Shown: in pieces, positions 7,275-41,571 of the stretch
How positions within the stretch are numbered: the stretch's first letter is position 1
Layout: each line of letters opens with the position of its first letter
Assembly (NCBI GenBank): GCA_027491155.1
Contig: JAIXWR010000010.1
Coordinates: 124,001 to 188,000, forward strand
Direction: 5' to 3'
DNA length: 64,000 nt
Origin: Verrucomicrobiaceae bacterium
GTDB taxonomy: Bacteria; Verrucomicrobiota; Verrucomicrobiia; Verrucomicrobiales; Akkermansiaceae
The notes under the pieces: generated by a model
Databases searched by the model: none
Seen by the model: the letters and a program-made list of their open reading frames with translations, nothing else
Told to the model about the DNA's origin: nothing
Translations under genes and position numbers: made by a program

Positions 7275-7473
7275 TCTGATGGTGAAAGGATTGGAAAGGG
7301 ACGGTCGTCACGGCCCCGGCGCGGCACCGTCCACCGGTCGCAAGGGTGCGAAAAATTCAAGCTTCCCGACTATTCGGGGAGGCGGCGGACTATGGTGACG
7401 ACAGCCCCGGCGGGTCAAGAGGGAATCCCTGTTCCGCAAAGAGAACAAAGGAGTTCCACGGCTTTTGCCCGGC

Positions 7474-8268: not shown

Positions 8269-8443
8269 CGGACGCGAGCGGACGGCAGCGGGGGTGATCC
8301 TTCCGCCCCGGCGGCGGGCTGGCAAACAAAACCGCGAGGGAATCGGGGCGGCGGCGCGACCGTCCCTGTCATCCCGGAGCTTTCGGCGTGATCGGTCGCC
8401 GCGGCCGGGGCAGATTCGACCGGACTCCCGCACGCAACCGACC

Positions 8444-10195: not shown

Positions 10196-10289
10196 TGCCG
10201 ACGGGCCTTGCCGTCCGCGTCTTCCGTCCGGAACCAGCGCTTTTCCCCTCGCATCCCCGCGGCTCCCTCCGTTCATTGCCCCCGGGCAC

Positions 10290-13200
10290 ATGGAGATCTC
10301 GGAAGACTGGGTGAGGGGACTGACCGGCTGGAAGCCCTTCAAGGATGGCAAGGCGATGGCGGACCAAGGTCTCGTCGCCGGATTCAAGCAATCCGGCGGA
10401 GTTCTCCAGGGCACCCTGCGCGAGGGTCGCCTCAATCTCCGGCCCGTGGTCAAGGTCGCCGGCCCCTCCGATGTCCGCGTGCAATGCGGCTGCCCGGATC
10501 ATCGTTCCACCGGCGGCGTCTGCGCCCACGCCGTGGCGCTGCTCCTGACGGCGCTCAAGCCGGCCACTCCAGCCGCGGCATTGCCGGTGGGCTCGCCGTC
10601 GCCCCGGCCGACCCCTTCCGCTCCCGCTCGAGCATGGGACATCCGCTTTTCCCCGCGGATCGAATCCGAGTGGTCCGACGGCAAGCTCGCCGTCCGGATC
10701 CTGCCGTCCTCGTCGGCGATCACTCCAAAGGATTCCGGCCTCAGCGGATGGCTGTCGGCAAAGAAGCTCCTTCACGCCTCCCAACCGCTCGCCCTGCGAC
10801 TCGCCGGAAGCGAAGCCGCGGAGTTCCTCGATCTCGTCGCGGGTCATCCGCGGGTGGAGATCGAAGGGCGCGCCGGATCTTTCCGGATCGAGGAGGAACC
10901 CGGCGCACCGCTCCGCCTGAGCGATAGCCGCTTTGAAGGAAGCCAGGTGGTCCTGGAGCTCTCGCCGGACGAACCCCGCCGGAAACTGGTTCGGTGGGGC
11001 GACTGCCCGGCTGTGATCGCTCCTTCCTCGGTTGAGCGGCTGCCCGGGCGATCGTCCCGGCCGGCTTGGCTCGGACAAGTCCTGGCGCTTGCGGAGAACG
11101 GACGATTGAATCTCCCGTTGGATGACTTCCTCGCCAGCTTCGATGCTTGGCTGGATTTGCTCGAGCCCCCGCATCCCGGATGGCTTGGAGCCCTGCGCTT
11201 GGCTGGCACCGAGCCTGGGTTCGAGTTGGAACTCGACGGCTCCCTCGATGTCTTGGAAGGGGTCCTGAAAGTCCGCTACCCGGGTCAAAGCGCCCGCCCG
11301 ATTCCGGAACCGGGTGAAATCCTGCCGGGATTGCCCTGCCTGGCACCCGACGGACATCTGATCACCCGAAATCCCGTGGCCGAGCATCAGGCCCGACTCC
11401 GCCTGGGCGGACTGGGCTTCGAGCCCTACCCGGGCAATTCTCGCTTCCGCATCCGCGGTCGCGAGGAGATCCTCGGCCTCATCGCGGACGGGCTTCCGGA
11501 GCTGCGCCGGCGCTGGCTCGTCAGGGAAGGGGAGCGCTTTACCGCTGCCGCCAGCCGTGTTCACGTGGTCCGGCCCGACATCCGGGAAACTGCGGACCAC
11601 GGCAGCTCGCTGCTGTTCGAACTTTCATTTCAAACAAGCGGAGGGAAGCGCATCCCAGGGGCGGAACTCCGGCGGATCCTGCGCGGCGGGAAGCGGAACG
11701 TGAAGCTCGCCAACGGGGCAGAACTGGTGGTCAGCAGGAGCTGTGAAGAACTGGTGAATCCGTTGGTGGAGGAGCTCGGAATCGGTCGTCCCGACGAGGC
11801 TATCCAGCTTTCAGGAGCCTCCTCGATCATTTTCCGGAATCTACGTGAAAAACTACAGGATAGACTGGATACTAATACTCCAAGTGAATCTCTAATATCG
11901 GATTCTCTTCCGATTTCAAACAGGGGGCTTGCCGCAACCTTAAGATCCTACCAAGGGGCCGGAGCTGCTTGGATGGTGGATCGCTTGAGTCAACTGGGCG
12001 GTGTCCTTCTCGCGGATGAGATGGGCCTCGGCAAAACAATTCAAACAATTGCTTGCATCAATCATTGGAAGCAGCTCGGTGGTGACTTGGAGGGTGCCAG
12101 TCTGATCGTGGCGCCTACTTCTCTTCTTGGGAATTGGATGGCGGAACTCGGGCGCTTTGCTCCGGATCTTCGGCGTTTGCTCTTCCATGGCGCAGGTCGC
12201 GATGGACTGCGGGACGCGCTGGAGAATCACGATGTGATTGTCACCAGTTATCAAACCGTGGTCCGCGACTTGGCATTCCATCTCCAGAGGGAATACCGGC
12301 TGATTGTGGCGGATGAGGCGAGCCTCCTTCGGAATCCGGACTCCGAGATCAGCAAGGCGCTCTGCAAGCTCCGGGCTCGCAACCGGATCGCCCTCACGGG
12401 GACGCCTGTCGAGAATCGCATGCAGGATCTCTGGTCTGTTTTTCGCTTCATTGCTCCCGGTTATCTGGGGAGCCGGGCGGATTTCAAGGAGCGCTACGAG
12501 GCGCCGGCTGCAGCCGGTGACCTGTCTCCGCCCGGACTTCTGGAGCGACTTCGCCTGCGCGTTTCGCCCTTTGTCCTGCGTCGGACCAAGGACCAGGTCG
12601 CTAAGGATCTGCCCGACAAGATCGAGATCGACGAATGGCTGACCATGTCGGAGGGGCAGGCGAGTCTTTATTCCACCCTGGCCCGGGCCGGCTTGGAAGA
12701 GGTCGAGCGGATCCGCGACCGGCAGGGCGAGGGGGCAGGAAGGATGCACTTGCTGACCTTGCTTCTGCGCCTGCGCCAGGTCTGCGTCGATCCGGGATTG
12801 CTGAATCTTAACGAAGGGGCTGCCGCCGGGGCTGTTAAAATCGAGCGTTTGTTGGAGTTTCTCGAGGAGCGATTTGAAAGCGGAGGCAAAACACTGGTCT
12901 TCAGTCAATTCGCGACGAATTTACGGCGAATCGAGAAGAGGATTTCCGAAGGCTTCGGCCGGGTGTTTTGCATCGATGGAAGCACTCGCAACCGCCAGAA
13001 TCTGGTGGATGACTTTCAATCGGCGGCGGGACCGGCAGTCTTCTTGATCAGCCTGAAGGCCGGTGGCTACGGCCTGAATCTGACGGCGGCCGATGCCGTG
13101 GTTCACCTGGATCCCTGGTGGAATCCGGCCGTGGAAGCCCAGGCGACCGACCGGGCGCACCGGATTGGTCAAACCCGGCCGGTGACGGTCTATCGATTGC

Positions 13201-13337
13201 TGACACGGGATACTGTCGAAGAAAGGGTTCGGCGGATGCAGGAGCGCAAGCGCGCCATCATCGAGGCTGCGACCGACGGTTCGGATTCCATCCCGCGGAA
13301 CTGGACCCAGCGCGAGTTGGAGGATTTGCTTCGCTGA
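10290..13337 (+). CDS. SWIM zinc-finger SNF2-family ATPase/helicase
   Basis: A 1015-residue SWI2/SNF2 DNA translocase. A SWIM zinc finger lies at about residues 66-84 (CGCPDH then CAHAV, a CxCx(n)CxH pattern). A long middle region follows, then the two RecA-like domains: Walker A in DEMGLGKTIQT near residue 577, motif II as VADEAS near 674, motif III LTGTPVENR, and C-terminal motifs with QATDRAHRIGQ near 950. Bacterial SNF2 proteins of this layout (HepA/RapA-like) are thought to remodel DNA- or RNA-polymerase-bound complexes. The linker before the ATPase core (about residues 515-550) is notably AT-rich compared with the rest. It stands alone on its strand after the GH10 gene. Confidence 0.88.
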   Translation: MEISEDWVRGLTGWKPFKDGKAMADQGLVAGFKQSGGVLQGTLREGRLNLRPVVKVAGPSDVRVQCGCPDHRSTGGVCAHAVALLLTALKPATPAAALPVGSPSPRPTPSAPARAWDIRFSPRIESEWSDGKLAVRILPSSSAITPKDSGLSGWLSAKKLLHASQPLALRLAGSEAAEFLDLVAGHPRVEIEGRAGSFRIEEEPGAPLRLSDSRFEGSQVVLELSPDEPRRKLVRWGDCPAVIAPSSVERLPGRSSRPAWLGQVLALAENGRLNLPLDDFLASFDAWLDLLEPPHPGWLGALRLAGTEPGFELELDGSLDVLEGVLKVRYPGQSARPIPEPGEILPGLPCLAPDGHLITRNPVAEHQARLRLGGLGFEPYPGNSRFRIRGREEILGLIADGLPELRRRWLVREGERFTAAASRVHVVRPDIRETADHGSSLLFELSFQTSGGKRIPGAELRRILRGGKRNVKLANGAELVVSRSCEELVNPLVEELGIGRPDEAIQLSGASSIIFRNLREKLQDRLDTNTPSESLISDSLPISNRGLAATLRSYQGAGAAWMVDRLSQLGGVLLADEMGLGKTIQTIACINHWKQLGGDLEGASLIVAPTSLLGNWMAELGRFAPDLRRLLFHGAGRDGLRDALENHDVIVTSYQTVVRDLAFHLQREYRLIVADEASLLRNPDSEISKALCKLRARNRIALTGTPVENRMQDLWSVFRFIAPGYLGSRADFKERYEAPAAAGDLSPPGLLERLRLRVSPFVLRRTKDQVAKDLPDKIEIDEWLTMSEGQASLYSTLARAGLEEVERIRDRQGEGAGRMHLLTLLLRLRQVCVDPGLLNLNEGAAAGAVKIERLLEFLEERFESGGKTLVFSQFATNLRRIEKRISEGFGRVFCIDGSTRNRQNLVDDFQSAAGPAVFLISLKAGGYGLNLTAADAVVHLDPWWNPAVEAQATDRAHRIGQTRPVTVYRLLTRDTVEERVRRMQERKRAIIEAATDGSDSIPRNWTQRELEDLLR

Positions 13338-13503
13338 GTCTGGTTAACACGGTCTCCGGGTGAGTTTCGAGGCCAGCCAAAGACTCCCGCTGCCTCCGCG
13401 ATGCAAATTGTGACAATGCATGTAATGCGGAGCATTGGATTCGGCAAGCGCCCCTGTTCTTCATTCCCGTCCCTTGGCGTGCTCTCCCCCGGCTCGCCTC
13501 CCA

Positions 13504-16500
13504 CTAGTTTTCCGTCACCTCGACCACTCCGAACATCCGTGTCGTCCCGGGCAAAATCGATTGATCGACGGTCACGCGCTCCCACGCGGCGTCGATCTCG
13601 ACGACGCTCTCCGGGCCGCTCATGGCGACGAAGGAACGGACGTCCAGCGTGGTCGACCATTTTGGCACGTAGGAAAAGCGACCGTCGCGTCGGCGGAGGT
13701 ATTCGACGCGGAAGACGCCCGAAACACGGGTGAAACTCGGGTAACCGGAGCTCCCCCGGCCTGCTTCCATGACCGGCCGGCCGGTGGAGGCGGGGTCGAG
13801 ATTGAAGGCGTGGCGGAGCAGCGACTCGTCATCCGCGATGACCGAAGCCCCCTGCCCGGCTTTACCGACCGTGCCGCGGGACCGGTTGTCGACGGTGGCC
13901 AAGCCTTCGGGATTCGCGGGCAGATCCAGCACGTGCAGTTCGTAGCCGGCGACCGGGTCTTCGGCGCCGAAGAAGAGTTGCTTGCCGGCGACACAGAGCA
14001 TGGCGGGATTTGACGAGCGGTCGCCGGGCATGACCTCGGCGATCATCGAAGTTCCGGCCCCGGTGCCATCGCTGGACCAGAGTTCGCGGCCCCGGACGGG
14101 ATCGCTGGCGGCGAAGTAAAGCCGCCCGCCGTGGACTTGGAAACCGGCGGGATTCGAACCCTCCGGCCCGGGAAACAGGTCGGCAACCATGGAGGTTCCC
14201 TCTTCGCTGCCGTCCGTGCGCCACAATTCCCGGCCGTGGGCCTGCGTGTCGATGACCAGATACAAAATCCCGTCGATGATCACGCTTTCCGGGACCTGCC
14301 CCGACTGGAAATAGGGCGCGGGACCGAGGCTGAGATCCTTCAAGATTCGAGTGCCGTCGGTGGTGCCGTCGCTGATCCACCATTTCAAGCCGCCGTTCTG
14401 TGCATCGGCGAGGAACAGGAAGCGCTCGCCAAACGGGACGGCGGTCAGCACCCGGAAGTAGCTGCCCGGATCGAAGACGATGGGCACTTCCAAGGTGCCA
14501 TCTGCCGTGCCGTCGGAGCGCCAGAGGCGGGAGGTGTCGGAGGTCTTGGAGAAGAAGCAGATCGAATTCCCGAGCGCCGTGAATTGGTCCAAACGCGGCT
14601 TCTCCCCGTTGGCCGCCGCAGGGAAGGCATCGCGGACCATCACGGTGCCCTCCGGGGTGCCGTCGGAGCGCCACAGTTCGTGGCGGAGCGGACGGCGGTC
14701 ATGAGCGAAGAACAGCGTCGGTCCGGCCATCCGCAAAGTGCCGCCCACCACGTTGAGCGGCGTGTTGCCGGGGATCGGGATCCCGCGGGTTTCTTTCCGG
14801 GTTCCGTCCGTCACCCAGAGCGCGTTTTCTGCCTCGCCGGAGGTGAAGAACATCCGCTCGCCATCGACCGTGAAATCGGAGGGCAGTCCCTGGCTGGGAT
14901 CGGCGAAGTTGGTCAACGGCGCCGTGCCGGCTTTGCTTCCGTTGCTAGCCCAGACCTGGGCGACCGCGAAGCTCGTGTTGTTGGCGTAGAGGACTCTCTT
15001 GTCCAGCCGGGTCAGGAACTGGCAATTCGCCGACCCGCCCTTGATCGTGTCGCCGACCGCTCTCGTGCCTTTGAAGGTGCCATCGCTGGTCCAGGGCTCG
15101 ATCCCGAACTTGGAGAATCCGGCGTTGAAGAAGACCTTGTTCCCCAGGGCCACGATGGGAGGCGAAAAGGAGAGGCTCAGGCCCAGGCCCGACCGGCCTT
15201 TCTGTTCCGGAACGGTGAGGCGGACGCTCCCCTTCTTGGTCCCGTCGGTCCGCCAGAGGTCGCCGCCGGGACTCAGTTGACCGCCCAGGAAATAAACCCC
15301 TTCTCCATCCGCCGTCAGTCCTTCCGGCTTCGTGCTGCGCTCGCCGGGCGCGGTTTCGTGGACCAGCCGGGTGCCTTTGGCCGTTCCGTCGGAGCGCCAG
15401 ATCTCCCGACCCCGCTTGGGGTCTTCCGCGGTGAAATAGACCCACCTCCCGGCCACGGTGAGATCCTGAAGATCGGCGGCGGCACTCCCGGGAGGGCTGG
15501 AGTTGACGATGCGGGTCCCGGCCGCGGTGCCATCGCTGCGGCCCAGCCCCGCCCCGCTGCCGGGGATGCTGGCGTCGTAATAAACCACATCGCCCAGCGG
15601 CACGAATCTCTCGTTCCGGTTCCCGAGCATGGACGTGGGGAGCCTTTCTGAGCCCGCCAGGGTCCCATCGCCACAACGCCAGATCTCCTCCGCGCCGCTC
15701 TCGGTCTTGGCTTTGAACCAGAGCTTGTCGCCCACCGCGAGCATCCCGCGGAATACTTCCCACGACTCGATCCCGGACTCCCGGGGGATCAACTCCGTCT
15801 CACCAACTTCGCCCGTAGCGCGCCAGAGCCATCGCCGCCCGGCGGCATGGACGACCAGGTAGAGCATGTCTCCCACGACGGTCATTTCCGGGATGCTGAT
15901 GCCCTGGTTCGGGATGGTCCGCAGATCGTCGATCATGATCGTGCCCTCCACCGTGCCATCGGATTTCCACAGCTCGGAGCCGCTGCCGAAGTAGAGGACT
16001 TCTCCCCGGCGTGCGAACACCGTGGGGGTGAGAAAGCGCCGGTTGAAGGAGCCTGCGGGCGTCGGATTGAGTTCCACGGCACCCGACGGAGTCCCGTCCG
16101 TGCACCATAGTCCGGTCCCCTTCCCCGATTCGGCCGTGAACCAAAGGAGGCCGGAAGCCGCGGCCAATGGCATGGGATTGCCGCTGCCGCCGCCCGGGAA
16201 GAGATCGGCGATCCGGACGGTCCCCGCGAGGCTCCCGTCGCTGCGCCAGAGTTCGCGACCGTGGACCCCGTCGTCGGCGGAAAAGTAGAGCTTCCCGCCC
16301 ATTTCCATCATCGCTTCCGGCCATGAAGAGCGGAATCCGGGATAGACGTCGGCGACGCGGAAGGTCCCCGCAGGCGCTCCCGAACTTACCCACAACTCGG
16401 CACCGTGCTCCAGCGTGGTCGCGTTGAAGAAGGCTTTTCCGCCGGCCAGAGTCGGGCGTTTGACCTTCAACGGACTGAGCTCGAACCCGGGGTCGAGATC

Positions 16501-29482: not shown

Positions 29483-30619
29483 ATGGCCCCCTACCTTCGC
29501 TTCGAGAACGTGACCCGCCGCTTCGGGTCCTTCACCGCCGTCAACGACGTCACCCTCGACATCGAGAAAGGCGAGACCTTCTCCCTCCTCGGCCCCTCCG
29601 GCTGCGGCAAGACCACGCTGCTCCGCATGGCCGCCGGCTTCGACAAGCCGGACATCGGCCGCGTGCTGCTCGACGGCAAGGACATCACCCCGCTCCCGCC
29701 CGACCAGCGGCCGGTCAACACGATCTTCCAAAGCTACGCGCTGTTCCCCCATCTGTCCGTTAGAGAGAACATCGCCTTCGGCCCGAAGATCGCGAAATGG
29801 ACACCCGACGCGATCACCCGCGGCGTCGACGAGATGCTCGATCTCATCGACCTGAAGGCCCACGCCGACAAGAAGCCGTCGCAGCTTTCCGGCGGTATGA
29901 AGCAGCGCGTCGCCATCGCCCGCGCCCTGGTCAACAAGCCGAAGGTCCTCCTGCTCGATGAACCGCTCGCCGCCCTCGACCTCAAGCTCCGCCAGCGGCT
30001 CATCGTCGAGCTCGATGCCATCCACGACGAGGTCGGCATCACCTTCATCTACGTCACCCACGACCAGGGCGAGGCGATGTCGATCTCAGACCGCATCGCC
30101 GTGATGAACAAGGGCGTCATCGAGCAGGTCGGCCCTCCCGCCCAGGTCTACGAGGCGCCCCGCAGCTCCTTCGTCGCCGCCTTCATCGGCGATACGAACT
30201 TCCTCGACGGCAAGATTACCGAAACGATCGACTCGCGCTTCTCCCGCTGCGAGGTGAACGGCTTCGGCAGCATCGTCATCGACAACGACAAGCCCGTCTC
30301 CGTCGGCGACCGCATCCATCTCTCGATCCGTCCGGAGAAGCTCGTCCTCTCCCGCGACAAGCCCGAGATCGGCCCGCTCGACAATGCCGTCGAGGGCAAG
30401 GTCGAAGACGTCATCTACTACGGCTCCCACACCCGCTACTGGGTCCGCTGCGGCGAATGGAAGCTTTGCGCCGAGATGCAGCACCGCACCTTCCTGCTCG
30501 ACCAGAGCCCGCCGAAGTGGGGCGACACCGTCTGGCTCATGTGGGACGCCAACGACGGCTTCCTGTTGGAGCAGTATCGCGAGGAGGATGAGGGGATGCT
30601 CACCTTGCCGGGGGAATGA
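29483..30619 (+). CDS. potA: spermidine/putrescine-type ABC transporter ATP-binding protein
   Basis: A 378-residue ABC ATPase that powers import. Walker A GPSGCGKTTLLRM is near residue 37, Q-loop in NTIFQSYALFPH near 80, signature LSGGMKQRVAIARAL near 135, Walker B VLLLDEPLAALD near 156 and the H-loop THD. A C-terminal TOBE-type domain of about 140 residues follows, typical of the PotA/FbpC group. The stop overlaps the start of the permease gene (ATGA). Polyamine is the most likely substrate by similarity of the three proteins; other organic cations or iron are possible. Confidence 0.88.
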   Translation: MAPYLRFENVTRRFGSFTAVNDVTLDIEKGETFSLLGPSGCGKTTLLRMAAGFDKPDIGRVLLDGKDITPLPPDQRPVNTIFQSYALFPHLSVRENIAFGPKIAKWTPDAITRGVDEMLDLIDLKAHADKKPSQLSGGMKQRVAIARALVNKPKVLLLDEPLAALDLKLRQRLIVELDAIHDEVGITFIYVTHDQGEAMSISDRIAVMNKGVIEQVGPPAQVYEAPRSSFVAAFIGDTNFLDGKITETIDSRFSRCEVNGFGSIVIDNDKPVSVGDRIHLSIRPEKLVLSRDKPEIGPLDNAVEGKVEDVIYYGSHTRYWVRCGEWKLCAEMQHRTFLLDQSPPKWGDTVWLMWDANDGFLLEQYREEDEGMLTLPGE

Positions 30620-31470
30620 TCCTACCGATCCGACCGATGAAACCGGAACGAAAGCCCGAACTCCTCGCCACCGCCCCGAGCTTCCTCTGGCTCGTGATGT
30701 TCGTGCTCGTCCCGGTGGCGATCATCTTCGCCATCGCCTTCCGCCCTGCCTTGCCGGCAGGGGGCATCGGCGAAGGCTGGAGCCTGAATGCGATCCGCGC
30801 GCTCGCCGATCCCAGCTACCCCGCGCTGTTCGCCCGCACCATCTTCGTCGCGGCCCTTACCGCCGCGTTGTGCATCGCCACCGCCCTGCCGGTAGCCTAC
30901 GCGATGGCCCGGCTCACCCCGGTCTGGCGTTCGCGGGTGCTGCTGCTGGTCATCGTGCCCTTCTGGACCAACTTCGTGATCCGCGTCTTCGCCTGGCAGC
31001 AGGTCCTCCACGCCCAGGGCTACGTCGCGGAGGCCCTGCGCTTCCTCGGACTGCTCGGAGATAACGACCGGCTGTTAGGCAACCTCGCCGCGGTCACCCT
31101 CGTCAGCGTTTACACCTATCTCCCCTTCGCGATCCTTCCGCTCTTCGCCGCGGCGGAGAAGTTCGACTTCGGGCTGCTCGATGCCGCCCGCGACCTCGGG
31201 GCCAAGCCGCTGCGCGCCTTTTACTCGGTCTTCATCCCCGGCATCCGCCAGGGCGTGATCACCGCCGTGCTGGTTGTCTTCATTCCCATGCTCGGCTCCT
31301 ACGTCGTGCCCGACATGGTCGGCGGCACCGGCACCCAGATGATCGGCAACAAGATCGCCCAGCGGAACTTCACCGACCGCAACCTCCCCGAAGCCGCCGC
31401 CCTCTCCGGCGCCCTCGCCCTCCTCGTCCTCGCCCCCATGTTCCTCCGCCGCCGCGCCAAAGAGGCATAG
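30616..31470 (+). CDS. potB: polyamine-type ABC transporter permease, PotB-like
   Basis: A 284-residue inner-membrane permease with six predicted helices. The EAA coupling motif is seen as LLDAARDLGAKPLRAFYSVFIPG near residue 190. The C-terminal half contains SYVVPDMVGGTGTQMIGN, a stretch typical of PotB/PotH. Translation probably starts at ATG 30616, overlapping the potA stop by four bases; ATG 30637 (MKPERKPEL) is an alternative. It pairs with the potC product. Confidence 0.88.
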   Translation: MILPIRPMKPERKPELLATAPSFLWLVMFVLVPVAIIFAIAFRPALPAGGIGEGWSLNAIRALADPSYPALFARTIFVAALTAALCIATALPVAYAMARLTPVWRSRVLLLVIVPFWTNFVIRVFAWQQVLHAQGYVAEALRFLGLLGDNDRLLGNLAAVTLVSVYTYLPFAILPLFAAAEKFDFGLLDAARDLGAKPLRAFYSVFIPGIRQGVITAVLVVFIPMLGSYVVPDMVGGTGTQMIGNKIAQRNFTDRNLPEAAALSGALALLVLAPMFLRRRAKEA

Positions 31471-31479
31471 CCTCCCCAA

Positions 31480-31507
31480 CATCTTCCATCTGCCATCTTC
31501 TATCGTC
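31480..31507. repeat. 7-nt periodic CATC repeat upstream of potC
   Basis: ATC begins at 31481, 31488, 31495 and 31502, an exact 7-nt step, as units CATCTTC, CATCTGC, CATCTTC and TATCGTC. It fills the 40-bp gap between potB and the GTG of potC, where a ribosome-binding site would be expected, and no Shine-Dalgarno sequence is visible. Confidence 0.7.
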
Positions 31508-31510
31508 CCC

Positions 31511-32290
31511 GTGAAACCCAGCCGCGTCCCCCTCATCACTCTGATCCTCGTGCTGGTCTTCTTCTACCTGCCGATCGGATTCCTGGTGCTGAACTCCTTC
31601 AACAACTCCCGCTTCGCCTCGAAGTGGAGCGGCTTCAGCACGCGCTGGTATGAACGCCTCGGCGACCGCCCGGACATCATCGCCGCACTCGGCAACTCGG
31701 TGAAAGTCGCCACCGCCGCCAGCCTGGTCTCGATGATCCTCGGCACCGCCGCCGCCTTTGCCCTCCACCGCTACAAATCCCGCCTCCAAGACACCCACCG
31801 CCTGCTGGTCACCGTGCCCCTGGTCCTGCCGGACATCCTCATGGGCATGAGCCTGCTGCTGCTCTTCATCTCCTTCGGGATGAGCCTCAGCCTCTTCACC
31901 ATCGCCGTTGCCCACATCACCTTCTGCCTCAGCTACGTCGCTCTCGTGGTCCAAGCCCGGCTCCAGGACTTCGACTTCAACGTCGTCGAAGCAGCCCGCG
32001 ACCTCGGCGCGACCAAAGTCCAGGCCTTCCTCAAGGTCACCCTTCCCCTCCTTGCTCCCGGCATCCTCGCCGGCGGACTGCTCGCCTTCACGCTCTCGAT
32101 CGACGACTACGTGATCACCTACTTCGTGAAGGGCCCCGGCTCCGACACCCTGCCGACCCTCGTCTATTCGATGATCAAGAAGAGCAAGGACCTCCCCGTG
32201 ATCAACGCGCTCTCGTCGATCATGCTGGTCGTCACCTTCGCGGTCGTTGCCGTGTCCCAGCGTCTCACCCGACCCGCACCTGTGGCTTGA
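31511..32290 (+). CDS. potC: polyamine-type ABC transporter permease, PotC-like
   Basis: A 259-residue permease with six predicted helices and the EAA motif VVEAARDLGATKVQAFLKVTLP near residue 158. SIDDYVITYFVKGPGSDTLP near 195 is the conserved PotC/PotI pattern. It starts with GTG (VKPSRVPLITL...). With PotA and PotB it would form the full membrane part of the importer. The gene for the periplasmic binding protein PotD, normally next in such operons, is not here; the next gene is on the other strand. Confidence 0.88.
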   Translation: MKPSRVPLITLILVLVFFYLPIGFLVLNSFNNSRFASKWSGFSTRWYERLGDRPDIIAALGNSVKVATAASLVSMILGTAAAFALHRYKSRLQDTHRLLVTVPLVLPDILMGMSLLLLFISFGMSLSLFTIAVAHITFCLSYVALVVQARLQDFDFNVVEAARDLGATKVQAFLKVTLPLLAPGILAGGLLAFTLSIDDYVITYFVKGPGSDTLPTLVYSMIKKSKDLPVINALSSIMLVVTFAVVAVSQRLTRPAPVA

Positions 32291-34741: not shown

Positions 34742-35668
34742 TCAAAGCGACGGGATCTTCACCGGGGAAGCTTCGCCGCCCGCCCCCGTGCCCCGGGCCC
34801 GGAATTCCGACGGGCTGCAACCCATCGCCCGGCGAAATGCACGGTTGAAGAACGAGACCTGGGTGAACCCGCAACCGAGGGCGATCTCCAGGACGCTGCG
34901 GGAGGTCGTCGATAGCTCCCGGCACGCCGCCTGAAGGCGTATCCCGATCAGGAAATCGCTCAGGCTTCGTCCCGTGTGCCGGCGGAACTGGCGGGAGAAA
35001 GTCGGCTTGGTCAAACCCGCGACCGCCAGCACCTCCGCCAGCCGGATCTCTTCGCGGAAATGCCGCACCAGATGCCTCAAGACACGGCTCATCGGTTCCT
35101 GATAAGTCGCGTCCGCCGGCGCTTGGAAGGACCGGCTGGCCAACGCTTCGAGCTCGTCCGCCGGCGCTGCTGCGAGCTCCGCCAGCAATTCGACGAAGCG
35201 CCCGAATCGCGCCAGGCCCTTCAAGCCGGCGAGCTCTTCCATCATTCCGGCAATCCGCCCGTGAACCGCTCCCGTCAGCCGCAGGCCGCCCGCCGCCTTC
35301 TGAAACAGCTCGCGCAAACCATCCGCTTCCGGCAGCTGCCACAGCGCGTGGTCGGCCGGGAAATGCCACTGCAAGGACAGGCCCGACGTCTTGCCCGCCG
35401 AATGCCAATGGTGCGGCAGCATCCCGCCTAACAGGACCAGGTCCCCCTCGCGAAAGTGTCCGATGTGATCGCCCACGAAGCGGTCGCCGCGACCTCCGGT
35501 GAAGAGCGTGAGCTCCATCTCGGGGTGATAGTGCCAATCCGCGCCTTCACCCCTCAACGGCACGCAGCCGCCGCCGGATAGCAGGTTTTCGACGTCCTTC
35601 ACCGAGGAACGCCACCGAATCAGGCGGAACGACTGCCCGGCCGGAATGTTGATCGTCTCGCGGCGCAC
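34742..35668 (-). CDS. AraC-family transcriptional regulator
   Basis: A 308-residue regulator with an N-terminal cupin sensor (WHYHPEMELTLFTGG near residue 41; FREGDLVLLGGMLPHHW near 68) and two C-terminal helix-turn-helix units (IRLAEVLAVAGLTKPTFSRQFRRH near 215; VLEIALGCGFTQVSFFNRAF near 262). The cupin type usually binds a sugar or acid. The start is GTG 35668, supported by a TTGCCA-N17-TATCCA promoter ending 6 nt upstream. It is divergent from the aldolase/kinase/GlcDF operon and probably controls it. Confidence 0.85.
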   Translation of the reverse strand: MRRETINIPAGQSFRLIRWRSSVKDVENLLSGGGCVPLRGEGADWHYHPEMELTLFTGGRGDRFVGDHIGHFREGDLVLLGGMLPHHWHSAGKTSGLSLQWHFPADHALWQLPEADGLRELFQKAAGGLRLTGAVHGRIAGMMEELAGLKGLARFGRFVELLAELAAAPADELEALASRSFQAPADATYQEPMSRVLRHLVRHFREEIRLAEVLAVAGLTKPTFSRQFRRHTGRSLSDFLIGIRLQAACRELSTTSRSVLEIALGCGFTQVSFFNRAFRRAMGCSPSEFRARGTGAGGEASPVKIPSL

Positions 35669-35674
35669 GGGCGA

Positions 35675-35703: not shown

Positions 35704-35927
35704 ATCCTCCCTTCCGGGTGAGACGATAGTGCCGGGATTTGATCCTACCCGTGTCGCAGGGGCGGCCCCGTCGTGATGTCATCGGGCGGTCGCTTCCCCG
35801 CCCGCCTCGGCGAATGACGGGAGTTCTTCCTGTTGCCGGTCGCAAAAAATCATTCCATGACCATGAGCACGGCGAGACCTGCGGCCGCGAAGCCCGTCCA
35901 CGCCAAGCTCCCCCAAACCCAGCCCTC

Positions 35928-36758
35928 ATGAAATCCTTCCGCCTCAACCGCCTCTTCAATCCCGCCTCCGGCCGCTGCTTCGACGTCGCGGTCGACCACG
36001 GCTTCTTCAACCAGCCCGGCTTCCTCGGCGGCATCGAGGACATCCGTGAGGCCATCCGCATCTTGGTCGACGCCGGCCCGGACGCGATCCAGCTCACCCT
36101 CGGCCAGGCCCGCCATTTGCAATCGATCCCCGGCCGCCACAAGCCCTCGCTGGTCCTGCGCACCGACGTCGCCAACGTCTACGGCACCGAGCTCCCGTCG
36201 ACCGCTTTCAGCCTGATGATCGAGGACACCATGCTGCAAGCCGTCCGCCACGACGCCGCCTGCGTCTGCGTGAACCTCTTCCAAATCCCCGGCGCGCCGG
36301 AAGTCCACGCGCAGTGCGTCGAGAACATCCTCCGCCTGAAACCGCAGGCCGACTACTACGGCATGCCGATGATGGTCGAGCCGCTGTGCTTCCGTCCGAA
36401 CTCCGAGGCCGGCGGCTACATGGTCGACGGCGACTTGACCAAGATCACCCACCTCGTCCGCCAGGCGGTCGAGCTCGGTGCCGACGTGATCAAGGCCGAC
36501 CCGACCACCGACCCCGCCGACTACCACAAGGTCGTCCAGATCGCCGGCGACGTGCCGATCCTGGTTCGCGGCGGCGGCAAGGTGGGCGACCGCGAGATCC
36601 TGGAGCGCACCCGGGTTTTGTTAGATCAAGGCGTCGCGGGCATCGTCTACGGCCGCAACGTCATCCAGCACGCCAACCCGCGCGGCATCACCCGCGCGCT
36701 GATGGCGATGGTCCACGAGAACGCCGGGGTCGAGGAAGCCATGCAACACCTCGCCTGA
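35928..36758 (+). CDS. class I aldolase, DeoC/LacD/FbaB family
   Basis: A 276-residue TIM-barrel aldolase. FDVAVDHGFF near residue 19 and the DVIKADPT motif, with K189 as the likely Schiff-base lysine, match the DhnA/LacD group of class I aldolases, which cleave phosphorylated ketoses to DHAP or glyceraldehyde 3-phosphate and an aldehyde. The end motif GIVYGRNVIQHANP is the phosphate-binding region. It is the first gene of a five-gene operon; the kinase gene begins 2 bp after its stop. The sugar is not identifiable; SFP aldolase YihT, tagatose bisphosphate aldolase and fructose bisphosphate aldolase are all related. Confidence 0.82.
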   Translation: MKSFRLNRLFNPASGRCFDVAVDHGFFNQPGFLGGIEDIREAIRILVDAGPDAIQLTLGQARHLQSIPGRHKPSLVLRTDVANVYGTELPSTAFSLMIEDTMLQAVRHDAACVCVNLFQIPGAPEVHAQCVENILRLKPQADYYGMPMMVEPLCFRPNSEAGGYMVDGDLTKITHLVRQAVELGADVIKADPTTDPADYHKVVQIAGDVPILVRGGGKVGDREILERTRVLLDQGVAGIVYGRNVIQHANPRGITRALMAMVHENAGVEEAMQHLA

Positions 36759-36760
36759 CC

Positions 36761-37762
36761 ATGAAGCCGGAGCGTTCGGGACTGCTGGCCGGCGGGAACT
36801 TCATCGTCGACCAGTTGAAGCTGGTCGACCACTACCCCGAGCAGGACCGGCTCGCCTTCGTCTCGTCGCAGTCCCGCACCAACGGCGGCGGTCCCTACAA
36901 CGTGCTCAAGGACCTCGCCGCGATGGGCGCGCCCTTCCCGCTCGCGGCGATCGGCATGGTCGGCGACGACGAGAACGGCCGCTGGATCCAGGACGACCTC
37001 CGCGCGTCCGGCATCGACATCCGGCAACTCCATGTGACCGCGGACGCCGCGACATCCTACACCGATGTCTTCTCGGTCGAGTCCACCGGCCGCCGCACCT
37101 TCTTCCACCAGCCGGGGGCGAATGCGCTGTTAGAACCGGCGCACTTCGATTTCTCTAACAGCAGCGCCAAGCTCTTCCACTACGCCTACCTGATGCTGCT
37201 CGACCGGCTCGACCGCTTCGACGCGTCAGGAAGCACCGCCGCCGCGTCGGTCCTGGCCCGCGCCCGCGCGGCGGGGCTGGTCACCAGCGTCGATATGGTC
37301 AGCGCCGGCCGCCCGGGTTTCCGCGAACTCGTGCTGGCCGCGCTGCCGCAGGCCGATCACCTCTTCGGGAACGAAATCGAAGCCGGCCTGCTGCTCGACC
37401 AGCCGCTCGACGGTAGCCTGCCCGGCCTCGCGGAGGCCGCCGCACGCTTGCTCGATCTCGGCGTGAACGAGGCCGTCGTGCTCCACTCCCCGGCCGGTGC
37501 GGTGGCCGTTGAAAGAAGTGGTGCATCTTATGTCCGCCCGTCCTTGAAACTCCCCTCCGACTTCAGCAAGGGCGCCACCGGAGCCGGCGATGCCTTTGCC
37601 GCCGGCTATCTCCATGGCCTGCACGAAGGCTGGCCGATGGAGCGCCGCTTGCAGCTCGCGACCTGCGCCGCCGCCGCCTGCCTGCGCCATCCCTCGCCCT
37701 CGGCCGGACTCCTGCCGGTGGCCGATTGCCTCGCCCTCGAATCCCGCTTTCCCGCCGCATGA
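36761..37762 (+). CDS. PfkB-family carbohydrate kinase
   Basis: A 333-residue ribokinase-type kinase. The N-terminal motif GGGPYNVLKDLAAMG near residue 42 is the family's first signature; the second, GATGAGDAFAAGYLHGL near residue 270, contains the catalytic Asp and anion hole. It would phosphorylate a sugar for the adjacent aldolase. A TGTTAG-type motif occurs twice in the gene. Its stop overlaps the GlcD start as ATGA. The substrate is unknown. Confidence 0.85.
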   Translation: MKPERSGLLAGGNFIVDQLKLVDHYPEQDRLAFVSSQSRTNGGGPYNVLKDLAAMGAPFPLAAIGMVGDDENGRWIQDDLRASGIDIRQLHVTADAATSYTDVFSVESTGRRTFFHQPGANALLEPAHFDFSNSSAKLFHYAYLMLLDRLDRFDASGSTAAASVLARARAAGLVTSVDMVSAGRPGFRELVLAALPQADHLFGNEIEAGLLLDQPLDGSLPGLAEAAARLLDLGVNEAVVLHSPAGAVAVERSGASYVRPSLKLPSDFSKGATGAGDAFAAGYLHGLHEGWPMERRLQLATCAAAACLRHPSPSAGLLPVADCLALESRFPAA

Positions 37763-39135
37763 ACGCCCTCCTCGATGACCTGCGGCAGCACTGTGGCGCG
37801 GACCGCGTGCTGTCGGAGGCGACCGATCTCATTCCCTACAGCTTCGACGGCACCGCGGAGCTGCGCCAGATGCCCGCCGCGGTCGTCTTCCCGCGCAGCA
37901 CCGCCGAGGTCGCGGCTTGCGTGAAATCCGCGGTCCACCACGGTGTCCCGATCGTCACCCGCGGCGCCGGGACCGGACTCAGCGGCGGCAGCGTGCCGGT
38001 GCCCGGCTGCCTGGTGATCTGCATGGTCGACCTGAAGGCGATCCTCGCGGTCGACCCCGCCATTCTAACACTCCGTGCCCAGCCCGGCGCGATCACCGCC
38101 GACATCGACGCCGCCGCGGGCAAGCATGGCCTGTTCTACCCGCCCGATCCCGGCTCGATGCGCGTCAGCACCATCGGCGGCAACGTCGCCGAAAATTCCG
38201 GCGGCTTGCGCGGATTGAAATACGGCGTGACCCGCGACTACGTGATGGGCCTTGAAGTCGTGCTGCCCGACGGCTCCATCACCCGCCTCGGCAACGCCTG
38301 CGTCAAGGACGTCGCCGGCTACTCGATGAAGGACCTCTTCATCGGTTCGGAAGGCACGCTGGGCATCATCACCGAGGTCCTCCTCAAGCTGCTCCCCCGC
38401 CCCGCCGCGCGGCGGACGATGCTGGCGAGCTACGACCGGATGGAAGACGCCGCGCGCACCGTGTCGGCCATCATCGCCGCCAAGATCATCCCCTGCACGC
38501 TGGAGTTCCTCGACCGCATGACGATCCGCTGCGTCGAGGATTTCTCCAAGATCGGCCTGCCGCTCGACTGCGAGGCGCTGCTGCTCATGGAGACCGACGG
38601 CCATCCCGCCGCGGTCGCCGACGAGGCTGCCGAAATGGAAAAGATCGCGCTGTCCCACGGTGCCCGTGACATCCGCAGCGCCCGCGACGATGCCGAAGCG
38701 CTCACGCTTTCCTCCGCCCGCCGCAATGCCTTCACCGCCCTCGCCCGGGTCCGCCCGACGACCATCGTCGAGGACGTCACCGTGCCGCGCGACAAGCTCG
38801 CGGAGATGGTTGCCTTCATCGCAGAGACGGCCGCGGCCCATCGCCTGCAAGTCGGCACCTTCGGCCACATGGGCGACGGCAACCTCCACCCGACCTTCCT
38901 CACCGACGAGCGCGACACGGAGGAAATGGGGCGCGTCCACCTCGCGCTCGACGCCATCGTCGACAAGACCCTGGCGCTCGGCGGAACCATCACCGGCGAG
39001 CACGGCGTCGGCCTGGCGAAGAAGGCTTGGCTGCCGCGCCAGTTCGACCCCGCCAGCCTCGACCTGATGCGGACGATCAAGCGCTCGCTCGATCCCGCCA
39101 ACCTGCTCAACCCCGGCAAGATCTTCGACTGTTAG
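37759..39135 (+). CDS. glcD: FAD-linked 2-hydroxyacid oxidase, GlcD-type subunit
   Basis: A 458-residue flavoprotein of the glycolate oxidase / D-lactate dehydrogenase family. The FAD-binding loop TRGAGTGLSGGSVPV is near residue 71 and GGNVAENSGGLRGLKYG near 140; the C-terminal catalytic half has GTFGHMGDGNLHPTFL near 375 and GTITGEHGVGLAKK near 415. It oxidises glycolate, D-lactate or a similar 2-hydroxyacid and passes electrons to the iron-sulfur partner encoded next. The start overlaps the kinase stop; the stop is TAG inside a CTGTTAG motif. No GlcE is present, as in many non-enterobacterial systems. Confidence 0.88.
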   Translation: MNALLDDLRQHCGADRVLSEATDLIPYSFDGTAELRQMPAAVVFPRSTAEVAACVKSAVHHGVPIVTRGAGTGLSGGSVPVPGCLVICMVDLKAILAVDPAILTLRAQPGAITADIDAAAGKHGLFYPPDPGSMRVSTIGGNVAENSGGLRGLKYGVTRDYVMGLEVVLPDGSITRLGNACVKDVAGYSMKDLFIGSEGTLGIITEVLLKLLPRPAARRTMLASYDRMEDAARTVSAIIAAKIIPCTLEFLDRMTIRCVEDFSKIGLPLDCEALLLMETDGHPAAVADEAAEMEKIALSHGARDIRSARDDAEALTLSSARRNAFTALARVRPTTIVEDVTVPRDKLAEMVAFIAETAAAHRLQVGTFGHMGDGNLHPTFLTDERDTEEMGRVHLALDAIVDKTLALGGTITGEHGVGLAKKAWLPRQFDPASLDLMRTIKRSLDPANLLNPGKIFDC

Positions 39136-39139
39136 AGTC

Positions 39140-40441
39140 ATGGCCGACACCCTCGACGAGCTCCGCGACACGCTCCAGCAGTGCATCCACTGCGGGCTCT
39201 GCCTGCCGGTTTGCCCGACCTACGAGCTGACCCGCCGCGAGCGCAGCAGCCCGCGCGGCCGGATCTCGCTGATGAAGGCGGTGGCGGCCCGCGAACTCGA
39301 GCCGGGCGAGATCTTCGCGAAGGAAATGGGTGACTGCCTCGGCTGCTTGGCCTGCCAGACCGCGTGTCCTGCCGGGGTCGACTACGCGTCGCTGATCGAG
39401 ACCGCCCGCGCCGAAGTCGAGACCCGCGGGCTCAACGACTCACCTTCCCGCTCGTTCTGGCGCTGGCTCGCGCTGGAGCAGCTTTTCATGAACCCGCGCG
39501 CGCTCCGCCTCGCCGGACGAATGCTGAGGCTCTATCAGAAAAGCGGCCTCGACCGCGCGGCGCGGCGTCTCGGAGTCACGCGCCTCCTTCCCAAGAGCCT
39601 GCGCGACTTGGAACCGCAGACGCCACGGATCACCGCGGCCTTTTCGAACGAGTTGATCGAACCCTGCGAAACTTCCACCAGCCCACCCAAACACCGCGTC
39701 GCCCTGCTCACCGGCTGCGTCCAGGACCTCGTCTTTTCCGACATCAACCGCGACACCGCCGATGTCCTGCTCGCCAACGGCTGCGAGGTCCACACCCCGC
39801 CGTTGCAACCTTGCTGCGGCTCGCTGCACGCCCACAACGGCGCGCCCGAACTGGCCCGCGAACTCGCGCGCCGCTTGATCGACCTGCTCCCGCCCGAACG
39901 CTTCGATGCCATCATCAGCAACTCCGGCGGCTGCGGCTCCCACCTCCGCCATTACGGCAAGCTGCTCGCCGGGGACCCCGCCTACGCCGCCCGTGCCCGG
40001 CTGTGGGACTCCAAGCTGCGCGACATCCACGAGTGGCTGATCGAAACCGGTTGCCGTCCCCCGCTGGCCGCACCGCAGGACGCGCCGCTGACCGTCACCT
40101 ACCACGACTCCTGCCACCTCGCCCACGGCCAGAAAGTCGTCCGCCAGCCGCGCGAACTGTTAGATGGGATCCCCGGCGTCACCACCGTGTCCTTGCCCGA
40201 GGCCTCGTGGTGCTGCGGCAGCGCCGGCATCTACAACATCACCCGGCCGGAGACTTCCGCCGCGCTAATGGAGCGCAAGGTCGGCCACGTGATCGGCACC
40301 AGCGCGAGCCACCTCGCCACCGCCAATCCCGGCTGCCACCTGCAACTCGCCCGCGGCCTCGCGGACGCCGGCTCACCGGTCGAACTGATCCAACCCGTCA
40401 CCCTGCTCGCCCGGGCCTACCGGCGCGAATCCCTCACATGA
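39140..40441 (+). CDS. glcF: glycolate oxidase-type iron-sulfur subunit
   Basis: A 433-residue protein with two 4Fe-4S motifs at the N-terminus (CIHCGLCLPVCP near residue 15; CLGCLACQTACP near 64) and two CCG domains (GCVQ...PCCGSLH near 190-235; SCHLAHG...WCCGSAGIYN near 320-360), the set found in GlcF/LutA/HdrB-like electron carriers. It accepts electrons from GlcD and passes them to quinone. It starts 4 bp after glcD and its stop overlaps the next start as ATGA. Confidence 0.9.
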   Translation: MADTLDELRDTLQQCIHCGLCLPVCPTYELTRRERSSPRGRISLMKAVAARELEPGEIFAKEMGDCLGCLACQTACPAGVDYASLIETARAEVETRGLNDSPSRSFWRWLALEQLFMNPRALRLAGRMLRLYQKSGLDRAARRLGVTRLLPKSLRDLEPQTPRITAAFSNELIEPCETSTSPPKHRVALLTGCVQDLVFSDINRDTADVLLANGCEVHTPPLQPCCGSLHAHNGAPELARELARRLIDLLPPERFDAIISNSGGCGSHLRHYGKLLAGDPAYAARARLWDSKLRDIHEWLIETGCRPPLAAPQDAPLTVTYHDSCHLAHGQKVVRQPRELLDGIPGVTTVSLPEASWCCGSAGIYNITRPETSAALMERKVGHVIGTSASHLATANPGCHLQLARGLADAGSPVELIQPVTLLARAYRRESLT

Positions 40442-41571
40442 AAAACATCCCCGTCGGCATCATCGGCGGCGGCCTCATGGGCCGCGAAATGGCCAGCGCC
40501 TTCGCCCGCTGGTGCGCTCTAACAGACGTGACCGCCCGCCCGGTCCTCACCGCGGTCGCCGATCTCAATCCGGACACGCTTTCGTGGTTCCAACGGATTC
40601 CAAGTTGCACCCAGTTGGTCGCCGACTACCACGAACTCCTGCAAAACCCGGAGATCGAAGTCGTTTACGTCGCGGTCCCCCACCACTTGCACGAGGCCAT
40701 CTATCTCGACGTCCTCGCCGCCGGAAAGGACTTGCTGGCCGAGAAGCCGTTCGGGATCGATCTCTCCGCCGCCCGCCGGATCGTCGATGCCGTCCGCGCC
40801 TCCGGCCGCTTCGTCCGCTGCTCGTCGGAGATGCCCTTCTTCCCCGGCGCGCGGCGGGCCTTCGAACTCGCGCGCTCCGGAAGCCTCGGCCGTTTGTTAG
40901 AAGTGACCAGCGGCTTCCATCATTCGAGCGACCTCGACCCCGCGAAGCCCGCCAACTGGAAGCGCCTGAGCGCGATCTGCGGCGAGGGCGGCGTGCTCAA
41001 CGACCTCGGCATGCACGCCTGCCACGTCCCGCTGCGCCTCGGTTGGAAGCCGAAGTCGCTGTTCGCCCAACTCCAGAAGGGCTACCCGGTCCGGCCCGAT
41101 GGGAAGGGCGGCACGACGGCCTGCGACACCTGGGACAACGCGATGCTCCACACCTGGATCGACCACAACGGCGCGGAAGTCCCGATGCGGCTCGAAATGA
41201 AGCGCCTCGCCCCCGGCGCGACCAATACCTGGTTCCTCGAGATCCTCGGCACCGACGGCGGCGTGCGCTTCAGCACCGCCGAGCCGAAGACCCTGCACGT
41301 CTTCGAGCGCGGCAAGGAGCAGTGGTGGAAGCGCACCGACCTCGGATTCGGTACGGGTTTCAAGACGGTCACCGGCGGGATCTTCGAGCCCGGCTTTCCG
41401 GACGTCATCCAGCAGATGTGGGCGGCTTATCTGGAAGAGCGCGAAGGCAAACTCGGCGACCGCTTCGGCTGCGCGACCCCGGAGGAAGCGCTCGCGAGTC
41501 ATGAAATCTTTGCCGCCGCGCTGGAGTCGCAACGGCTCGGCGAGGCCGTTTCCTTGATTCGTCCGTCGTGA
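40438..41571 (+). CDS. Gfo/Idh/MocA-family NAD(P)-dependent oxidoreductase
   Basis: A 377-residue sugar dehydrogenase-like enzyme. The Rossmann motif GIIGGGLMGREMASAF is at residues 7-22 and the family EKPFGID motif near residue 101. The C-terminal beta-sheet domain is seen through LNDLGMHACHVPLRLGW near 185, where D and H correspond to the common catalytic area. Such enzymes oxidise or epimerise cyclic sugars, polyols and inositols. It closes the operon, translationally coupled to glcF, and probably acts on the sugar before phosphorylation and aldol cleavage. Confidence 0.87.
   Translation: MKNIPVGIIGGGLMGREMASAFARWCALTDVTARPVLTAVADLNPDTLSWFQRIPSCTQLVADYHELLQNPEIEVVYVAVPHHLHEAIYLDVLAAGKDLLAEKPFGIDLSAARRIVDAVRASGRFVRCSSEMPFFPGARRAFELARSGSLGRLLEVTSGFHHSSDLDPAKPANWKRLSAICGEGGVLNDLGMHACHVPLRLGWKPKSLFAQLQKGYPVRPDGKGGTTACDTWDNAMLHTWIDHNGAEVPMRLEMKRLAPGATNTWFLEILGTDGGVRFSTAEPKTLHVFERGKEQWWKRTDLGFGTGFKTVTGGIFEPGFPDVIQQMWAAYLEEREGKLGDRFGCATPEEALASHEIFAAALESQRLGEAVSLIRPS

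Follow-up and report, generated by a model that had tools for sequence, protein, structure and literature searches.

The rhamnose, fucose and D-arabinose pathways (RhaABD, FucIKA) break down sugars via a ketulose-1-phosphate with FGGY kinases and class II zinc aldolases, the sulfo-Embden-Meyerhof-Parnas (sulfo-EMP) pathway is laid out as YihS, YihV, YihT and YihU, and the ydj cluster of E. coli comprises the YdjH kinase and the class II aldolase YdjI. An engineered xylulose-1-phosphate pathway, built from human and E. coli parts, employs an aldose isomerase, a ketose C1 kinase and a class I aldolase that releases dihydroxyacetone phosphate (DHAP) and glycolaldehyde, leading to a 2-hydroxyacid, and is termed synthetic in the first of the two papers (PMC5029101, PMC6995148). 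We compared these systems with a five-gene operon in a 64,000-nucleotide stretch (hereafter the window; positions 124,001 to 188,000 of contig JAIXWR010000010.1, assembly GCA_027491155.1) of the 5.7 Mb genome of a Verrucomicrobiaceae bacterium. With moderate confidence, we regard this operon as one copy, bereft of its isomerase gene, of a conserved catabolic module that would cleave a ketose-1-phosphate to DHAP and a 2-hydroxyaldehyde, with GlcDF acting downstream. It would be a variant form of the ketose-1-phosphate/DHAP-aldolase type of sugar catabolism.

In logic, the engineered pathway appears to be the nearest known system, with the difference that the module combines a bacterial DhnA-like aldolase, a PfkB kinase, a Gfo/Idh dehydrogenase and GlcDF in one operon. 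The RhaABD and FucIKA pathways share the succession of aldose, ketose, ketose-1-phosphate and DHAP plus lactaldehyde or glycolaldehyde, but differ in their classes of kinase and aldolase. Sulfo-EMP has in common an isomerase, a PfkB kinase and a PF01791 class I aldolase, whereas the aldolase and kinase of the module are not close to their sulfo-EMP counterparts by sequence, the isomerase is of another family, and GlcDF and Gfo/Idh stand in place of YihU. The ydj cluster likewise pairs a kinase and an aldolase with dehydrogenases, and in a profile comparison no solved protein came nearer to the module kinase than YdjH (97.2 bits); the aldolase of the cluster, however, is of class II, and the cluster is not known to contain an isomerase or GlcDF.

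The operon and its isomerase scar

The five genes (35928-41571) all lie on the plus strand and form one tight unit, and the gaps of 2-4 bp and ATGA overlaps given in the first-pass annotation were confirmed from the sequence. The first gene encodes a class I aldolase of the DeoC/LacD (DhnA-like) family (35928..36758, +; Pfam DeoC/LacD, 103.8 bits), which we propose to be a ketose-1-phosphate aldolase, and it is followed after 2 bp by a PfkB-family sugar kinase gene (36761..37762, +; Pfam PfkB, 126.9 bits), the proposed ketose C1 kinase. An ATGA overlap leads into the gene for a GlcD-like flavin adenine dinucleotide (FAD) 2-hydroxyacid dehydrogenase subunit (37759..39135, +; FAD_binding_4 and FAD-oxidase_C domains), a gap of 4 bp separates this from the gene for a GlcF-like Fe-S/CCG subunit (39140..40441, +; CCG and Fe-S domains), and a second ATGA overlap joins the latter to a Gfo/Idh/MocA dehydrogenase gene (40438..41571, +; GFO_IDH_MocA domain). 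All five proteins score below the curated cut-offs of their nearest NCBIfam models, far below for the aldolase, the kinase and Gfo/Idh, and less so for GlcD and GlcF.

A gene for an AraC-family regulator (HTH_18) diverges from the operon (about 34742..35671, -). It had been described earlier as a cupin AraC protein; its divergent orientation and AraC type stand, whereas a Pfam search at E <= 0.001 returned helix-turn-helix domains only and no cupin. Between this gene and the aldolase gene, positions 35763..35927 (+) hold the degraded 3′ end of a XylA-like isomerase gene together with the short gap before the aldolase. This stretch aligned at the nucleotide level (3e-19) with the last part of the intact isomerase gene of the nearest genome, G006 (locus L035), but shows numerous small gaps, a disrupted frame and an in-frame stop; against the coding DNA only, the local score was 113, whereas 500 shuffles reached at most 68 and 159 other stretches of the window at most 69. 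In G006, whose aldolase is 96% identical, the intact isomerase gene occupies the same place and ends ~20 bp before the aldolase gene. Since the aligned flanks on both sides of the scar lie within one contig of 232,587 bases, the loss is not a contig-end effect. Most of the isomerase gene has thus been deleted from this genome, with the regulator side and an intergenic motif surviving. The first-pass statement that no isomerase is present is therefore literally true but misleading: the absence is a local loss and not a feature of the pathway, which looked incomplete here because its first gene had been lost from this copy.

To place the operon among its relatives, we used 142 aldolase loci, which gave 130 unique loci after merging of identical aldolase stretches (loci and genomes carry L and G numbers). 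The loci were picked for closeness, so that counts describe close relatives, and many are cut by contig ends; counts are protein-to-DNA matches, as mechanical gene calls were partly wrong. Of the 130, 30 have a divergent AraC orthologue no more than 2.5 kb upstream of the aldolase, and in 28 of these a XylA-like isomerase gene stands between the two, the exceptions being this genome and L153. The surviving motif, TGAGAYRATAGT (35719..35730, +), is a putative operator or promoter element that was chosen from the alignment of the window with L035; it matches once in the 64 kb window (0.01 expected) and occurs exactly in 22 of the 30 AraC-divergent intergenic regions, being missing from L037, L048, L123, L137, L145, L146, L147 and L153. 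Over 17 bases, the best match was, in several loci, no better than in shuffles.

It is somewhat unlikely, in our assessment, that the operon is simply decaying in this genome and, without its isomerase, serves no pathway. The deletion and the broken frame would suit such decay, as would the rest of the genome, where the best match to the module isomerase is 28% identical and a genome search found no member of the D-lyxose isomerase family. However, all five remaining reading frames are open, TGAGAYRATAGT is retained, and the 28%-identical match, judged by eye, looks like a class II XylA. The ratio of nonsynonymous to synonymous substitution rates relative to G006 was also low (0.06-0.21) for AraC, aldolase, PfkB, GlcD and part of GlcF (198 residues only; Gfo/Idh is absent from that G006 contig), although this ratio may, to the disadvantage of our interpretation, span a divergence that is perhaps largely older than the isomerase deletion.

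Distribution and gene content of the module

At E <= 1e-40, the aldolase was found in 35 of 97 genomes of a set of relatives, this genome included, with 62-96% identity in the 34 others. It was also detected in 23 of the 387 genomes sampled from the phylum as a whole and in 25 of the 273 that represent another order of its class (the three sets overlap). Public genomes contain at least 392 relatives; the best 80 of these include Bacteroidota (Niabella, Pedobacter, Aquimarina, Terrimonas and Mucilaginibacter) and single metagenome-assembled genomes (MAGs) titled Acidobacteria and Gemmatimonadetes. This patchy occurrence suits an accessory catabolic function.

Gene content was assessed in the 86 of 130 loci that are well flanked, the aldolase being preceded by at least 1.5 kb and followed by at least 5 kb of sequence. 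At least one module partner lies near the aldolase in 74 of them, which speaks against the scattering of the genes in relatives that the first-pass annotation had considered, though 12 have none. The genes counted there were Gfo/Idh (49 loci), PfkB (41), XylA-like isomerase (30), GlcD or a GlcDF fusion (17), class III aminotransferase (13), D-lyxose-isomerase-family (8) and FucI-like (5) genes, with Gfo/Idh and a kinase occurring together in 42. Loci that possess the isomerase usually show one of two orders, isomerase-aldolase-Gfo-PfkB or isomerase-aldolase-GlcD-GlcF-Gfo-PfkB. The complete module of Verrucomicrobiota, with relatives in Bacteroidota, consists of a divergent AraC gene followed by genes for XylA-like isomerase, class I aldolase, optionally GlcD and GlcF, Gfo/Idh and PfkB. 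Among its cultured carriers is Verrucomicrobium sp. BvORR034 (L115), which has the isomerase, aldolase, kinase and Gfo/Idh genes. The order of the window, ald-pfkB-glcD-glcF(-gfo), was seen only in this genome and in G006, whose contig ends inside glcF. The earlier view of exactly these five genes as a unit did not hold, as the natural unit includes the XylA-like isomerase, has GlcD or GlcDF in a minority of loci and varies in gene order. The module is apparently undescribed so far; no description of the gene set was recognised in the covered portion of the open-licence PubMed Central literature. The same literature yielded no recognisable paper on what the ydj cluster does, and nothing on the D-apiose/apulose-4-phosphate pathway, a further conceivable rival with apiose isomerase, apulose kinase and aldolase activities, for which a single search was made.

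The aldolase also has a second context, with a class III aminotransferase gene nearby in 13 of the 130 unique loci (L144, L153, L163, L166, L174, L177, L179, L194, L196, L202, L203, L213 and L214); 5 of the 13 carry a FucI-like isomerase gene, and several carry another PfkB kinase gene and, as judged by eye, ceramidase-like or NagB-like genes. Downstream of the module, some Verrucomicrobiales repeatedly carry a gene for a GntR-type regulator along with pairs of DUF1501/cytochrome-like genes (L046, L047, L052, L056 and L127; L124 without the regulator; all by eye). The module also occurs in public MAGs titled Akkermansia muciniphila and Polynucleobacter meluiroseus (L108, L112), titles that are probably wrong. 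Elsewhere in the window, 29483-32290 contains genes that read by eye as a polyamine/spermidine-type ABC transporter (an ATPase and two permeases), unrelated to the operon.

Enzyme families of the module

The XylA-like isomerase gene is directly upstream of the aldolase gene in 47 of the 49 loci that contain it. Among the 97 relatives, 18 have the isomerase at E <= 1e-60, of which 17 also have the aldolase and 16 have the two genes adjacent; in G064 the aldolase is on a different contig, and G092, where the match lies at the edge of a contig, yielded no aldolase. The best solved relatives of this protein are xylose isomerases (172.9 bits for 6xia), and it scored 203.7 bits against TIGR02631 (cut-off 447). 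In an alignment of 45 full-length sequences, out of 48 extracted from the 49 loci, the equivalents of H54, D57, W137, E181, K183, E217, H220, D255, D257 and D287 were kept in 45/45, in what we take to be the XylA residue numbering; of the XylA catalytic positions, that of D245 is the exception. Across the 130 loci, XylA-like (49), D-lyxose/D-mannose-isomerase-family (10) and FucI-like (5) genes never occur in the same locus, as expected if all fill one role, and an epimerase-like triosephosphate isomerase (TIM)-barrel gene precedes the aldolase in L050 and in L051/L128, the latter two being from the same genome. Xylose-, lyxose- and fucose-type isomerases produce ketoses.

The kinases are distributed in the same manner: PfkB (54 loci), PfkB2 (4) and ketohexokinase-family (2) genes were never found together in one locus. 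In L158 (12684-13808), PfkB is replaced by a prokaryotic ketohexokinase (PF25270, 154 bits, cut-off 35), and in L204 (about 13472-14500) by a protein that is 63% identical to it and was assigned by that similarity. Ketohexokinases yield ketose-1-phosphates, and these swaps may point to a ketose-1-phosphate as the substrate of the aldolase. FGGY kinases matching the XylB model were detected in 92 of the 97 relatives (32 over cut-off), so that their co-occurrence is uninformative.

The second NCBIfam match of the kinase, the N-domain of IolC, raises the alternative of an inositol or keto-acid route in which Gfo/Idh would oxidise a cyclitol, and the kinase and aldolase, as IolC and IolJ, would yield DHAP and malonic semialdehyde. 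Cgl0159 (3fok) is indeed a fold neighbour of the module aldolase (Z 23.9, root-mean-square deviation (rmsd) 2.9 over 247). We nevertheless reject the IolC/IolJ pair, as the IolC score of 77.5 bits is far under the cut-off of 300, and consider the route as a whole very unlikely: neither IolB nor IolD was recognised by eye in the module, and the module isomerase keeps a XylA catalytic set.

The aldolase is closest, in both sequence and fold, to the DhnA-type enzymes MJ0400 (ADH synthase), archaeal fructose-bisphosphate (FBP) aldolase 1ojx and LsrF. Enzymes of this type serve biosynthetic, glycolytic or autoinducer-2 roles. Lys189 is invariant in 23/23 aldolases and aligns with the K of GADIVK in MJ0400, and the three reference enzymes likewise have Lys at the aligned position. 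The predicted fold (mean predicted local distance difference test score 88.4) matched MJ0400 with DHAP (Z 32.4) and with FBP (Z 32.0; rmsd 2.5 over 260 residues) best, and LsrF at Z 30.1 (rmsd 2.2 over 251), followed by sulfohexulose-1-phosphate, tagatose-bisphosphate and sulfofructose-1-phosphate aldolases (Z 21.7-23.3). The module aldolase nevertheless differs from the DhnA-type enzymes, with 24-30% identity in structural alignments and with invariant E151-P152 and F155 in the strand that carries a Tyr in the archaeal members.

These results bear on whether the aldolase and kinase might be the housekeeping glycolytic FBP aldolase and phosphofructokinase, or a known sulfo-EMP pair, as the first-pass annotation had allowed; sequence tests supported neither. 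For glycolysis, the aldolase resembles archaeal class I FBP aldolases at the family level, but it scored 98.1 bits against the class I FBP aldolase equivalog NF040816 (cut-off 430) and was not found in 62 of the 97 relatives at E <= 1e-40, and the genome has a class II FBP aldolase family gene (PF01116) and two PF00365 phosphofructokinase genes. We therefore rejected the glycolytic assignment, which is extremely improbable.

A sulfosugar or other C6-modified hexose as the substrate, degraded in a sulfo-EMP-like manner with GlcDF oxidising sulfolactate or a similar compound, also seems quite unlikely. The superfamilies are the same as in sulfo-EMP (PF00294 and PF01791), the fold neighbours of the aldolase include 8tnf (Z 23.3) as well as LacD and YihT (Z 21.7-22.7, rmsd 3.0-3.7 over about 250), YihV is among the tied kinase folds, and the FucI-like partner of another variant of the module weakly matches the sulfoquinovose isomerase model SftI (49.6 bits, cut-off 700). 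On the other hand, YihT is absent from the sequence matches of the aldolase at E <= 0.001, and by profile at E <= 1, and YihV (7ag6) is only a weak match of the kinase (25.1 bits, E 8.3e-5, 29th row of the match list), on which grounds the known sulfo-EMP pair was rejected by sequence. Moreover, no sulfonate gene, sulfoquinovosidase or AGE-type sulfoquinovose isomerase was recognised by eye among the neighbours, where no dedicated search was made. A cautionary case for reading function from a kinase/aldolase pair comes from PMC12421959, where the proteome on sulfofucose showed no increase of the PF00294 and PF01791 pair encoded in a sulfofucose cluster, and the real route was different.

GlcD scored 495.4 bits against TIGR00387 (cut-off 567.9) and GlcF 235.6 bits against PRK11274 (cut-off 333), below both glycolate oxidase equivalog thresholds. 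GlcD/GlcF-type fusions follow the kinase in L184 (Pedobacter) and L158; the best model for the L184 fusion is D-2-hydroxyglutarate dehydrogenase, followed by GlcD, both below cut-off. GlcDF and these fused GlcDF-like proteins point to a 2-hydroxyacid. For Gfo/Idh, the best model was levoglucosan dehydrogenase (82.1 bits, cut-off 650), and the best solved relatives were the 'putative dehydrogenase' 6a3f, 4gqa and the scyllo-inositol/L-glucose dehydrogenase 5ya8. Iron-containing alcohol dehydrogenase (Fe-ADH) clusters lie upstream of the aldolase in L134, L138 and L140, the L134 protein scoring below the cut-offs of the 4-hydroxybutyrate dehydrogenase and lactaldehyde reductase models. An Fe-ADH gene and, by eye, an aldehyde dehydrogenase (ALDH)-like gene are near the aldolase in L217. 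There (6307-14069), an aldolase of 53% identity stands in a row with aldo-keto reductase, GlpD-like, FGGY kinase, ALDH-like and Fe-ADH genes (most of them labelled by eye), an arrangement suggestive of a DHAP/aldehyde route complete in itself.

Proposed route and candidate substrates

In the proposed route, the AraC regulator would control the module, and the XylA-like isomerase would convert an aldose to a ketose, which the PfkB kinase would phosphorylate, most plausibly at C1, to a ketose-1-phosphate. The class I aldolase would then cleave this product, presumably releasing DHAP, to a short 2-hydroxyaldehyde, which would be glycolaldehyde if the sugar is a pentose. An unlinked enzyme may oxidise the aldehyde, GlcDF, often present, would oxidise the derived 2-hydroxyacid, and Gfo/Idh may catalyse a further redox step, possibly with the incoming sugar as its substrate, 3-keto-sugar chemistry being one candidate. 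As for this genome, which has a class II XylA gene, a different isomerase could supply the ketose, or the ketose could be taken up as such; otherwise the route may be idle. The first-pass proposal of a sugar pathway with a kinase feeding a class I DHAP-type aldolase and a 2-hydroxyacid passing to GlcDF agrees with the conserved gene neighbourhoods, with the ketohexokinase swaps and with the outcome of the sequence comparisons against glycolytic, sulfo-EMP and IolC/IolJ pairs, and its interpretation as a whole is partly supported.

The identity of the ketose was considered in the light of the isomerases and kinases. A natural xylulose-1-phosphate pathway that serves D-xylose or D-lyxose, with isomerisation to D-xylulose, phosphorylation at C1, cleavage to DHAP and glycolaldehyde and passage of glycolate to GlcDF, appears unlikely as the function of the complete module, even though XylA-like and D-lyxose-isomerase-family genes substitute for each other between loci, ketohexokinase-family kinases replace PfkB, and GlcDF suits glycolate. 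The engineered pathway likewise employs ketohexokinase and aldolase B (PMC5029101). If the ketose is D-xylulose, the class II XylA read by eye in this genome could, speculatively, explain why loss of the module isomerase is tolerable. However, the positions of M88, T90, F94 and D245 of XylA are F, A, W and H in 45/45 module isomerases, an invariant difference in the pocket that argues against a simple xylose route. In addition, D-xylulose has another outlet, as XylB-like kinases are widespread among the relatives and L171 (Aquimarina) has a XylA over cut-off and a XylB-like kinase (302 bits, cut-off 380) beside the module; this genome also has a XylB-like kinase (best 310 bits against the same cut-off). 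The module would thus either act on a ketose other than D-xylulose or give D-xylulose a second outlet.

Several observations weigh against our interpretation of the operon as one copy of a ketose-1-phosphate cleavage module. The aldolase is not tied to one pathway, as shown by GlcD or a GlcDF fusion in only 17/86 well-flanked loci, no searched partner in 12/86 and an aminotransferase gene in 13/86. The ketohexokinase swaps rest on 2 of the 130 loci, and 70/130 lack all three searched kinase types and 66/130 all three searched isomerase types, in both cases partly through contig ends. The fold of the kinase (Z 33.7-38.6) cannot separate ribokinase, YdjH, YihV, IolC and ketohexokinase, and the fold neighbours of the aldolase include the sulfohexulose-1-phosphate aldolase 8tnf (rmsd 3.0 over 246). 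Finally, no aldehyde dehydrogenase was recognised among the neighbours in a typical module, unlinked genes not having been searched.

Beyond this operon, we tentatively suggest, as a possibility that falls a little short of an even chance, that Verrucomicrobiota and Bacteroidota possess a natural and widespread ketose-1-phosphate cleavage system. It would be defined by a class I DHAP-aldolase family that is new and that works with isomerases (XylA-like, D-lyxose-isomerase-family, FucI-like and TIM-barrel) and kinases (PfkB, prokaryotic ketohexokinase and FGGY) able to replace one another, and its two-carbon product would pass to GlcDF, as nature's version of the engineered xylulose-1-phosphate route. 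Family models give the module genes no more than a loose assignment, to xylose isomerase, DeoC/LacD aldolase and PfkB kinase, and the window offers a clean case in which the first pathway gene is deleted while the regulator, the intergenic motif and the downstream genes are retained. If correct, the suggestion would supply all-bacterial parts for a route that has been engineered from human ketohexokinase and aldolase B, and would extend the known aldolase families and sugar pathways by one each, present in many environmental bacteria.

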